From: a virus
DNA: 45,724 bases
Virus record (IMG/VR): IMGVR_UViG_3300049893_001162
Location: 1-45,724 of that record
Direction: 5' to 3' (one strand)
This document shows, in pieces, positions 17,117 to 25,733 of the stretch. A program made the translations under genes and the position numbers. Each line of letters starts with the position of its first letter. Positions within the stretch are counted from its first letter, which is position 1. The notes beneath the pieces were generated by a model that made no database searches, was not told the DNA's origin, and saw nothing but the letters and a program-made list of their open reading frames with translations.

Positions 17117-17818
17117 ATGACGCAAAGCAATAGCAACATCACTGCGGCCGGTGGCAACCTGGAAGCTGCCAGCCAGTTTGTGAAACTCTCCGCCCTCAAA
17201 AATAAGACGGTGGAAGGTGGCAAGCTGGCGCTCCGCATCATCAGCAAGGAGCGCACGGGAGAAGATGGGAAGAAATCACGAGACTTGCCGGAGTCTCTGG
17301 CACTCGTGATTCCTGATGATCTTGCACCGCTGTCGGAATGCTTCAAGTTTCCGGCAATTGCACAGTATCTGTATGATGCCGTGCATGAGGTGCAAGCCAG
17401 AATTGCCAAAGCAGCGGCAATGCGAGGTGAGGCTACTGTGTGGCATGTGCAATTGATGCCGCAGAAGCTTGAGGAGTTTCTCGTTGCCAGCAATGAAACG
17501 CTCGGCAGGCTTACACTGGCAGAAATCGCCGGCATTGTGGCTGGAAACTGGGAAATCGTGAAGGCAGCATATGAGACTGCTACGGAAAAACAGATTCCAG
17601 CAGACAAAATGCAGCAAGCGCAAAACTTCTGCCGCGGAATTCTGGAAAAACTCTGCGATGGCGCACCGATGCTGGCGAATGAGAAGCAAGAAACTTTCGC
17701 TCAGTTGGTTGCGGAGAGTGTGAGCGGAGAAATCGCAACAAAGCTGCAAAACAAGGTTGCAAAAGCTTTGGAGAATCGCAAAGTGATGCTTGCAGCTGCG
17801 GACGATCTCGGAATGTAG
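17117..17818 (+). CDS. First early-unit protein, unknown function, 233 aa
   Basis: A soluble, mainly helical, Ala/Glu/Lys-rich protein beginning MTQSNSNITAAGG. It is the first gene behind the boxA leader and is followed immediately by a strong terminator, so it forms its own transcript or regulates what lies beyond. Codon use (CTG, CGC, GCG) is richer in G/C-ending codons than in its neighbours, indicating strong expression. ATG 17117 is chosen over 17102 and 17111 because AAGGA is spaced seven bases from it. The layout (beta start, YLYDAVHEVQARI helix, long helical tail) weakly resembles the protein at 24331-24975; the two may be paralogues. No function can be assigned. Confidence 0.75.
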   Translation: MTQSNSNITAAGGNLEAASQFVKLSALKNKTVEGGKLALRIISKERTGEDGKKSRDLPESLALVIPDDLAPLSECFKFPAIAQYLYDAVHEVQARIAKAAAMRGEATVWHVQLMPQKLEEFLVASNETLGRLTLAEIAGIVAGNWEIVKAAYETATEKQIPADKMQQAQNFCRGILEKLCDGAPMLANEKQETFAQLVAESVSGEIATKLQNKVAKALENRKVMLAAADDLGM

Positions 17819-17835
17819 CACGCAGTGCTAGTTAG

Positions 17836-17885
17836 CACCCTCACAGTTTGCTGAGAAATCAGTAAATTGTGAGGGTGTTTTTATT
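17836..17885 (+). terminator. Strong intrinsic terminator after the first early gene
   Basis: CACCCTCACAGTTTGCTGA (17836-17854) pairs along its whole 19 bases (two G-U pairs) with the arm ending at 17877, closed by a GAAA tetraloop, and is followed by TTTTTATTT. There is no T-run on the other strand. Passage beyond it would require antitermination or a new promoter. Confidence 0.9.
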
Positions 17886-17905
17886 TGTATGCTGCATTGC
17901 CGCAT

Positions 17906-18043: not shown

Positions 18044-18133
18044 AAATGTTTTTCTTAAAAGTGTTATTTTTTTAGTAGGGGGGGCCGATATACTGAGGGG
18101 ACGCTAAGATGCAAGATGGTAATTACACATTGC

Positions 18134-18180
18134 CTTACTTATGCACTCTTATGGGAGTTAGCTGAGAGTGCATAAGTAAG
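18134..18180. repeat. Long hairpin with 16-bp perfect stem
   Basis: CTTACTTATGCACTCT (18134-18149) and AGAGTGCATAAGTAAG (18165-18180) are perfectly complementary with a 15-base loop. Two shorter hairpins follow: CGGC-tgt-GCCG (18181-18191) and GCAC-cagaa-GTGC (18198-18210). There is no T-run, so this is not a simple terminator. It lies between the two iteron arrays and could be an origin dyad or an RNase III site. Confidence 0.7.
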
Positions 18181-18232
18181 CGGCTGTGCCGCAGTAAGCA
18201 CCAGAAGTGCCCCGTTGACACCCAAAGGGGGG

Positions 18233-19577: not shown

Positions 19578-19654
19578 GGCCCGTTAGCTTAATTGGTTAG
19601 AGCAGAGGACTCATAATCCTTTGGTTATAGGTTCGAATCCTATACGGGCTACCA
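19578..19654 (+). tRNA. tRNA with CAT anticodon (probably Ile-CAU, AUA-decoding; Met possible)
   Basis: A 77-base cloverleaf with acceptor GGCCCGT/ACGGGCT, an anticodon arm AGGA-CTCATAA-TCCT, a normal T arm (GGTTCGAATCC) and an encoded CCA end. The anticodon is CAT. Overall similarity to bacterial tRNA-Ile2, whose C34 is changed to lysidine to read AUA, is greater than to elongator tRNA-Met, and the phage's AT-rich genes use AUA often. The amino-acid identity is therefore an inference. Confidence 0.9.
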
Positions 19655-19665
19655 CTTTTTTACTT

Positions 19666-19751
19666 CCACCTATGGTGAAATCGGTAGACACAGCAGACTT
19701 AAAATCTGCCGCTCTTAGAGCATGCCAGTTCAAATCTGGCTAGGTGGACCA
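19666..19751 (+). tRNA. tRNA-Leu (TAA anticodon)
   Basis: An 86-base class II tRNA with acceptor CCACCTA/TAGGTGG, an anticodon arm GCAGA-CTTAAAA-TCTGC (anticodon TAA), a long variable arm (CGCTCTTAGAGC), a T arm (GCCAGTTCAAATCTGGC) and an encoded ACCA end. It reads UUA (and UUG), common leucine codons in the AT-rich phage genes. It lies 11 bases after the CAT tRNA and is probably cotranscribed. Confidence 0.93.
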
Positions 19752-24330: not shown

Positions 24331-24975
24331 ATGAATGCACCTGTTGAAGCTCCGGTCGCAACTGTTGTTGATGTTGTCCCTGTTAAATTCCACTTCAAGA
24401 CTAAGGAAGATGAAGTCACGAAACAAAAGACTCGTCGTCCTACGGTGGAACTGAAACTTCCGCTTGTTAATCTGAACGGCATTATCGAAATCATCAACAG
24501 CGGCGATGAGAAAATGATCACGCTAATGGTGGATTCGCTGCGTGAAGTGCAAGTTGGTCAAGCACGTAACGTGGTGAATGAGAAAGAAGATATCACGCAA
24601 GATAACTTCCCTCTCGATACTGTTGATTGGAAAGCAATTGCGTATCTGCCGCCTGCGCAACGTCGCGGTGCTGGTATTCCGAAAGAGCAATTCGACGAAT
24701 TTGCGAAAGACTATATCTCGGTTATGCCTGCTGTTACTGGTAAGACTGAGAAGCAAGTTGCGAATGCTGCTTTCTTCTTCCAGCAAAAACTGAATCCGCT
24801 GAAAGCGCATCCGGAAAAAGACAAGCATCTCTCGAAACTGAAAGAACAGCTTGCTCTGTACGCTGGCAATTCTGCCCGTGCTGAGGAATTCACCGATGTT
24901 ATCGAATTCCTGAACGATAAAGCAGATGCGCTCATTAAAGCAGATAGCATCAATGACGCTCTGCAGAACATGTAA
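24331..24975 (+). CDS. Highly expressed early protein of unknown function, 214 aa
   Basis: A soluble protein with a Val/Pro/Ala-rich N-terminus, a beta-strand pair (RPTVELKLPLVN, about 36-47), a helix (DEKMITLMVDSLREVQVGQA) and a long helical C-terminal half. Codons are conspicuously G/C-ending (CTG, CGT, GCG), as in the capsid gene and genes 17117 and 28560, and a near-consensus promoter lies upstream. A structured non-coding RNA region follows it. It may be a distant paralogue of the 17117 protein. ATG 24331 has AGGAGA upstream. No family was recognised. Confidence 0.75.
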   Translation: MNAPVEAPVATVVDVVPVKFHFKTKEDEVTKQKTRRPTVELKLPLVNLNGIIEIINSGDEKMITLMVDSLREVQVGQARNVVNEKEDITQDNFPLDTVDWKAIAYLPPAQRRGAGIPKEQFDEFAKDYISVMPAVTGKTEKQVANAAFFFQQKLNPLKAHPEKDKHLSKLKEQLALYAGNSARAEEFTDVIEFLNDKADALIKADSINDALQNM

Positions 24976-24984
24976 TTGCTGGGC

Positions 24985-25011
24985 CGAGAGCTGATGTAGG
25001 ATTACCTCTCG
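24985..25011 (+). other. Hairpin downstream of the 24331 gene
   Basis: CGAGAG (24985-24990) pairs with CTCTCG (25006-25011) with a 15-base loop, ten bases after the stop codon. There is no T-run, so termination is unlikely; mRNA protection or processing is possible. Confidence 0.4.
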
Positions 25012-25057
25012 TAAATAAACTTAATCCTTCTGTCCTGAGCATGACAATAAAAGGCTC

Positions 25058-25157
25058 TTTTAGTCTGCACTCTCCTGCAAGTAGAAGTTTAAATCCCGGT
25101 GTGAGCGCACGCTACGGAACCACTATAAAGTTCCAGCAGCGAGAGTGCAGTCTAAAA
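25058..25157 (+). ncRNA. Branched structured RNA of about 100 nt, unknown class
   Basis: TTTTAGTCTGCACTCTC (25058-25074) pairs with GAGAGTGCAGTCTAAAA (25141-25157) with one T-T mismatch. Inside, CTGC (25075-25078) can pair with GCAG (25136-25139), GTAG (25081-25084) with CTAC (25112-25115), and GGAAC (25116-25120) with GTTCC (25130-25134), giving a closed multi-helix junction. The first and last arms are A/T at the outer end and G/C inside. It has no T-run and no tRNA or familiar riboswitch signature that I can see. It lies in a 207-base gap between genes. It could be an independent ncRNA, an mRNA-processing site (RNase III) or a regulatory element for the next gene. Confidence 0.55.
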
Positions 25158-25182
25158 ATTTCTGCAATACCATAAGTGTAGT

Positions 25183-25419
25183 GTGAGGCAATATCAGGGT
25201 GTATGGGAAAAAATTAAACGAGAAGGCACAGCTTTCGTAGCTGCGCACCCATTGCTACATCCTAGAATTATAAAAGCAGTAACGAAAGAAAAGTATATGG
25301 ACTCGGTATACAAGTGGCAGCTCTCTGAGAATCTTCAGACTGCCACTCTTTCGCATTCTATAAAAGGAAGTAGAATTACATTCACACTTCGTAAATCAAT
25401 AGGATCGGATGATTTGTGA
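25183..25419 (+). CDS. Small protein of unknown function, 78 aa (GTG start)
   Basis: A basic, mixed alpha/beta protein whose start (VWEKIKREGTAFVAAHPLLH) and middle (IIKAVTKEKYMDSVYKWQLS) look like a genuine globular protein. The only suitable start is GTG 25183, 25 bases after the structured RNA, with a poor Shine-Dalgarno. That arrangement hints that the RNA may control it. It overlaps the next gene by TGATG. No family was recognised. Confidence 0.55.
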   Translation: MRQYQGVWEKIKREGTAFVAAHPLLHPRIIKAVTKEKYMDSVYKWQLSENLQTATLSHSIKGSRITFTLRKSIGSDDL

Positions 25420-25733
25420 TGACCACACCTGTGATGCCTACTGAACTCTCTCAAGCACAGCTTATAAAAGCAGAAATCTCCAAACTCCAGGAAGCTCTCC
25501 TCAAACAGATGCCAGAAATGCCTAGCATTCTGCGCACAATTCACAAGCAACTCAAAGAAAATCCAGACTGTGTTACGCTGCTAACTGAAGAAGAGATTGG
25601 ACAAATTGTTCTAGGTCTGGAAAAACATACAGGCGCTGTGATAGTTGCTGATACTGTGAAAAAGCAAAGCACTACTGGTGCTAAAGCAGTAAAAGCTAAA
25701 GTCGCACAGATGAATCTGGATGAAGACCTGTGA
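25419..25733 (+). CDS. Small helical protein, 104 aa
   Basis: A charged, Lys/Glu/Leu-rich helical protein (SQAQLIKAEISKLQEALLKQ) ending in an acidic MNLDEDL tail. ATG 25419 overlaps the previous stop (TGATG), so coupling is likely. It overlaps the next frame by 14 bases. It lies before a nuclease/ATPase recombination cluster. Function unknown. Confidence 0.6.
   Translation: MTTPVMPTELSQAQLIKAEISKLQEALLKQMPEMPSILRTIHKQLKENPDCVTLLTEEEIGQIVLGLEKHTGAVIVADTVKKQSTTGAKAVKAKVAQMNLDEDL

Follow-up and report, generated by a model that had tools for sequence, protein, structure and literature searches.

T7-like phages possess RNase III processing sites between their early genes, and the frameshift pseudoknots of the luteovirus type combine a one-nucleotide loop 1 carrying a conserved C with a short stem 1 and an A-rich loop 3. 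The leader pseudoknot of T4/T2 gene 32 is the operator of the phage ssDNA-binding protein, and it offers a precedent for translational control (PMC3014915). STAXI RNA is a small pseudoknot motif found in two or three tandem repeats, sometimes near DNA-handling genes (PMC2864571).

The window, by which we mean the whole stretch of DNA analysed here (45,724 nt), is the entire virus record IMGVR_UViG_3300049893_001162. On its + strand, a compact H-type pseudoknot (25031-25057) lies directly upstream of a branched hairpin (25058-25157); the sequence-only reading had marked the hairpin, and the pseudoknot falls outside it. The locus resembles the T7-like RNase III sites in having a long intergenic stem in an early operon, whose sequence is free to change. 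Unlike those sites, its stem is preceded by a pseudoknot and has a branched interior, and cleavage here is putative. The pseudoknot has the same one-nucleotide loop 1 C, short stem 1 and A-rich loop 3 as the luteovirus type. Like that of gene 32, it is a phage H-type pseudoknot in untranslated mRNA, and one copy in the Synechococcus phage S-EIVl precedes the gene of an ssDNA-binding protein. Unlike that of gene 32, however, it occurs near many unrelated genes and tRNAs, stands behind stop codons, and is conserved in sequence across phages of distant hosts. No gene 32-type placement was found in the window, where the pseudoknot precedes a 78-aa gene whose product has no PHROG match and only Pfam matches below the cut-off. 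With STAXI it shares the form of a small pseudoknot motif and an occasional place close to DNA-handling genes. It differs from STAXI because it is mostly single, with one copy in the window, and our Rfam scans gave no STAXI match.

The terminase and helicase of this genome share 32-39% identity with those of Polaromonas phage Tiera, Aeromonas phage P5, EBPR podovirus 3 and the Pseudomonas PaP2/119X group. No relatives were found by a DNA search or with the 214-aa protein alone, and near relatives may be absent from the collections searched; relatives were obtained via the helicase and alignment A1. The window also has tRNA-Met and tRNA-Leu genes at 19578-19654 and 19666-19751 (+). The gene upstream of the element (24331-24975, +) encodes the 214-aa protein, which is conserved in the phage family (alignment A1, 24 sequences) and matched no PHROG or Pfam family. 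The downstream gene (25183-25419, +) encodes the 78-aa protein from a GTG start. Our analysis bore out the gene-free gap of 207 nt between them (24976-25182) and the 25 nt between the hairpin and the GTG gene, which is real, as its protein family could be aligned in 26 sequences including the window (alignment A2). The poor ribosome-binding site reported for this gene was also found, as no evident Shine-Dalgarno sequence precedes it. By eye, its relatives mostly lack one too.

The arms of the hairpin (25058-25074 and 25141-25157, +) are separated by 66 nt and are 94% complementary, with one U-U mismatch, as had been claimed for 17-nt outer arms. The predicted fold is a three-way junction, in keeping with the multi-branch junction proposed earlier, and consists of an outer stem (25059-25063/25152-25156 and 25065-25074/25141-25150), an inner helix (25075-25078, with its partner at 25136-25139) and two internal hairpins (25098-25113 and 25116-25134). 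The 15 outer pairs with one mismatch, together with the 4 inner pairs, reach the approximately 20 bp expected of an RNase III site. The claim of high structure also held for this stretch, which had originally been chosen by eye: its minimum free energy is -40.4 kcal/mol, against -21.1 kcal/mol (sd 3.2) for 200 dinucleotide shuffles, none of which was as low (z -6.1). Less favourable are the z of -4.8 for the best 100-nt segment of the 207-nt gap and that of -1.8 for the whole 225-nt stretch. Among non-overlapping 100-nt segments on both strands of the genome, the hairpin ranked 12th by energy. Four of the eleven more stable segments are on the + strand at 17.1-18.2 kb, where 17801-17900, 18131-18230 and 17141-17240 have very stable folds with energies below that of the hairpin. 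The minus strand of the hairpin stretch is nearly as stable (-39.4, z -4.9), so the strand cannot be told by folding energy alone.

The near-perfect inverted repeat might be taken for a mobile repeat, and a small frame (25041-25175, 44 aa) is open through the element. However, the repeat is present in a single copy in the genome and in none of the other loci searched. The frame has no ribosome-binding site, and in relatives its counterpart soon meets a stop codon, after 2 codons in L002 and L032 and after 7 in L030. We therefore regard a mobile repeat or a coding frame as a very remote explanation.

No ARAGORN match and no Rfam tRNA or tmRNA match was found at the hairpin, which agrees with the earlier statement that it is not a tRNA. 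Nor did it resemble a familiar riboswitch: at E up to 10 there was no noteworthy match to a riboswitch, ribozyme or sRNA, and the three Rfam hits within this limit are far below the gathering score and lie outside the hairpin or across its edge. A covariance model of the hairpin (R3) was run against 95 + 99 other loci and detected no relative; its sole match, in L044, had an E of 4.8, which is at chance level. Thus, the proposal of an uncatalogued structured RNA in the gap is supported, but a class formed by the branched hairpin itself is not, as the hairpin had no relative in the 194 other loci. The stable, compact and branched fold would suit a free small RNA that is released from the transcript and acts in trans. 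We consider this improbable, because the hairpin has no relative and no promoter-like site was found nearby on the + strand.

In the nearest relative, the sequence match to the window lies just before the hairpin and not within it. This region forms the H-type pseudoknot. Stem 1 has 4 bp (25031-25034/25043-25046), loop 1 is a single nucleotide (C25035), and stem 2 has four standard pairs (25037-25040/25054-25057) with non-standard ends (U36-U58 and A41-G53). One nucleotide (U25042) lies between the stems, and the A-rich loop spans 25047-25053. A tight scan pattern was derived from five relatives (NNUC-C-UGRRCA-U-GANN-NUAAAC-UGYYCA), and the window pseudoknot bears every fixed letter of it. The covariance model R1, among whose 101 sequences the window is included, gave 43 bits at 25029-25060 (E 2.5e-9 over 741121 bases).

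Alignment A3, which holds the window and 100 of 206 distinct pseudoknots, showed clear covariation. In these 101 aligned sites, 116 cells were changed on both sides of a pair, compared with 41.0 (sd 5.6) in shuffles and at most 26 in slid versions. The covariation score was 0.304, compared with 0.131 (sd 0.009) and at most 0.088, respectively. Because the tight pattern fixed part of the stems, we rescanned with three of the six stem 2 pairs and three of the four stem 1 pairs left free (six of ten in total), and counted only new loci among the matches listed (82 distinct of 86). In these, the free pairs of stem 2 were formed in 77, 82 and 82 of the 82 sites, while the highest values in 200 shuffles were 69, 73 and 74; those of stem 1 were formed in 82, 80 and 61, against 54, 50 and 44. 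Many compensatory changes were seen among the matches listed: all five inner free pairs were formed in 76/82 sites and all six in 56/82, and one stem 1 pair was AT in 55, TA in 15, CG in 10 and GC in 2 of the 82. The pair just beyond stem 1 was formed in 21/82 of these sites, with a shuffle mean of 33.6. Compensatory changes were also found in relatives L275, L331 and L332. The covariation indicates an element that works at the RNA level and is read from the + strand of the window, and the pseudoknot family is a robust result.

The pseudoknot is widespread. The tight pattern matched at least 120 stretches in viral contigs, where the pattern in reverse, with its composition unchanged, had 0 matches. 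It also matched 106 stretches in bacterial genome contigs, the reversed-pattern control covering viral contigs only. These matches are in records of Deltaproteobacteria, Omnitrophota, Clostridia, Saccharibacteria, Bacteroidales and Paenibacillus. The free pairs tested were formed in 100/108 genome-contig sites, and the remaining eight may be chance matches. Of 136 phage records matched, six named phages were examined and all six scored with R1, their hosts being Nostoc, Lactobacillus, Mycobacterium, Synechococcus, Microcystis and Arthrobacter; the Staphylococcus and Vibrio matches among the other records were weak where listed. Cultured carriers include S-EIVl, with six copies, and Arthrobacter phage Molivia. 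Some phage records have several copies: L117 has 8, and L358 has three low-scoring ones about 316 nt apart. Rfam 15 scans of the window and its relatives gave no above-threshold match on the pseudoknot or the hairpin. The LOOT RNA hit that overlaps the pseudoknots of L036 scored 11.6 bits, with a cut-off of 46.4. A literature search on the pseudoknot by sequence and topic found nothing; most subscription journals were outside its scope, and prior publication is possible. It is thus well supported that the pseudoknot is an RNA family with no above-threshold Rfam match.

Our deep search found 107 loci with both flanking genes, which yielded 86 distinct gaps besides that of the window after repeats and lengths outside 20-1500 were dropped. 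The best segment had a z below -4 in 51/87 gaps but in only 7/84 coding controls, partly through terminator-like hairpins. The pseudoknot was found in 16/87 gaps and also in L029, L035, L348, L349 and L350. L310, a doubtful case, was kept among the 16 despite one mispair and no R1 match, while a fuzzy match in L313 was dropped. A stem of at least 16 bp (with at most 3 mismatches) starts within 37 nt of the pseudoknot at 11/21 family sites, compared with 5/240 controls, and is absent at the other 10/21. These 21 sites (20 genomes) were compiled manually and are not independent, as L300 and L311 have the same pseudoknot; L029 is cut by the contig end. In L349, which was excluded, the pseudoknot is 273 nt before a long-stem RNA. 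In the same test, 6/111 of the pseudoknots listed from other phages had such a stem. The long stem is thus rare behind the pseudoknots of other phages, and the tandem is not general.

Among relatives, the long stem measures 14-22 bp and drifts freely in sequence. It is all that the relatives share at the place of the hairpin, and the stems of L002 (14 pairs) and L030 (22 pairs) enclose different interiors. What is preserved behind the pseudoknot is the long stem, not its interior. In L030 (1560-1680), by eye, the loops GUACUG and CAGUAC of the long-stem RNA are perfectly complementary and could kiss.

The commonest long-stem RNA at this place is a family with a fixed core, CUGGUAA-[hairpin]-RUCAAUGCAGAAAU, found in 14 genomes and termed M2 here (L311:3712-3789, L322:1355-1449, L327:3989-4066 and others, as well as the RNA of L349 mentioned above). 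A fifteenth M2 genome, L347 (5671-5759), has no match to the 78-aa family. M2 covaries very strongly: 20/26 pairs have both partners changed in at least one row, and the covariation score is 0.720 against 0.188. No Rfam match to it was found. Several M2 apical loops hold CCUCC, which resembles an anti-Shine-Dalgarno sequence. L300:3712-3809 and L311:3712-3789 have the pseudoknot and the M2 outer stem in common, while their inner hairpins differ. The window hairpin has the same place after the pseudoknot and an equally long outer stem, but not the M2 core. Its assignment to M2 was rejected, since model R2 with filters off matched the outer stem only (11.2 and 11.0 bits on the two strands).

The pseudoknot and hairpin could instead control translation of the 78-aa gene, as an operator or a ligand-binding leader over a start without a Shine-Dalgarno sequence. 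By eye, the start codon is located at the base of the 3′ arm in L029, L035, L311, L322, L331 and L349; the fixed core of M2 resembles ligand- or protein-binding RNAs, and gene 32 provides the precedent. In the window, however, 25 nt separate the stem from the start codon, and in other loci this pseudoknot is followed by tRNA genes and terminator-like hairpins. Translational control is therefore unlikely, but it is the strongest alternative because of the start at the stem foot in at least six relatives.

The pseudoknot prefers a place behind stop codons. Among the viral sites listed, an ORF end is within reach upstream in 127/179, compared with 153/895 control positions. The stop-to-CCT distance in these 127 has a sharp onset at 8 nt (5 nt before stem 1), with only 8/127 sites closer. 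The six copies in S-EIVl are all intergenic and on the coding strand, four of them 8-9 nt behind an annotated stop. Read-through or frameshifting is not supported and was rejected: among the viral sites listed, the stop before the pseudoknot is TAA in 92/127, a second stop follows at once in 9/127, and most of the frames that come after it are short.

The ribosomal helicase reaches beyond the A site by a distance that matches the 8-nt onset. This onset would suit a role of the pseudoknot in termination on the upstream gene, as an insulator against drifting or re-initiating ribosomes, with the hairpin as a separate part. Such a role seems rather improbable, however, as 52/179 viral sites listed have no ORF end within reach, and the distance is far larger in the window, where 58 nt separate the pseudoknot from the stop of the 214-aa gene, and in most members of its phage family (43-113 nt).

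In L044, L106, L145 and L149, the pseudoknot is 5-12 nt before a tRNA gene. L351 and L356 also have it directly before phage tRNA genes, although the feature annotated as tRNA-Pseudo in L351 was not recognised as a tRNA by ARAGORN. By eye, terminator-like hairpins follow the pseudoknot in L158, L192, L201, L224 and L227. Those seen by eye in some syntenic gaps of the relatives might suggest a transcription attenuator or antiterminator. This has a low probability in our view, since no U-run follows the hairpin. The lack of a terminator T-run noted earlier agrees with our finding of no + strand terminator call in 24800-25500. Moreover, no conserved U-run was found behind the pseudoknot in 118 sites among the matches listed. 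A promoter before the pseudoknot was rejected, as these 118 sites have no promoter-like conserved column upstream; the site set as a whole used 125 of 132 matches listed, those dropped being too near an end or repeated.

The orientation of the neighbouring genes favours the upstream gene in bacterial genomes (17 vs 4 of 86 sites) but not in viral contigs (10 vs 14 of 110 sites listed), with 13 and 14 of these sites, respectively, being inside gene proxies. In 31/108 bacterial sites, a tiny ORF with an HCxxGC-like end precedes the pseudoknot, as judged by a loose DNA pattern. Tiny ORFs with a ribosome-binding site (L167, L186, L217, L227, L231 and others) read about M...RYMLRPVAHCKEGC, and their GC codons are 9 nt from the pseudoknot where checked by eye. 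In four Omnitrophota-like loci, by eye, the pseudoknot is before an Rrf2-like regulator gene.

Of the roles offered earlier, namely a new ncRNA, a cis-regulator or a processing site, the best fit is an element that acts in cis or serves processing. Our preferred explanation, which we put forward tentatively, is a cis-acting boundary between messages that has two parts, with the hairpin as its 3′ half. Transcription would cross the gap, giving a + strand message in which the pseudoknot comes first and the abutting hairpin second, between the 214-aa and 78-aa genes. A host double-strand ribonuclease of the RNase III type would cut the long stem, and the pseudoknot would then block 3′-to-5′ exonucleases and keep the upstream message stable. 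As a result, the two genes would be expressed apart. This boundary is suggested by the covariation of the pseudoknot and by its place behind stops and, in four loci, directly before a tRNA, another cleaved RNA. It is also suggested by the drifting long stem right after the pseudoknot at about half of the family sites. A freely drifting stem of some twenty pairs is what is expected of an RNase III substrate, and a tight pseudoknot after a coding region could shield a 3′ end. A link to the upstream gene is favoured by the neighbour orientation in the 106 bacterial-genome loci. The neighbour orientation in viruses, the 43-113 nt from the stop, the tandem not being general, the ten family sites without it, the dependence among related sites and the start codon at the stem foot in relatives count against the boundary.

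More broadly, phages and bacteria of many phyla probably share the pseudoknot as an uncatalogued class of RNA, placed at the shortest distance behind stop codons that a terminating ribosome permits and having a general function at the ends of messages. Within this phage family, its partner would be a long-stem RNA that changes quickly, the window hairpin and M2 being two versions of it. If this is true, a 27-nt pseudoknot would be a common message-end part that annotation has missed, carried by phages of Nostoc, Mycobacterium, Lactobacillus and Arthrobacter hosts and by contigs of several bacterial phyla. If the pseudoknot protects 3′ ends, it would help to explain how neighbouring phage genes reach unequal levels without promoters.
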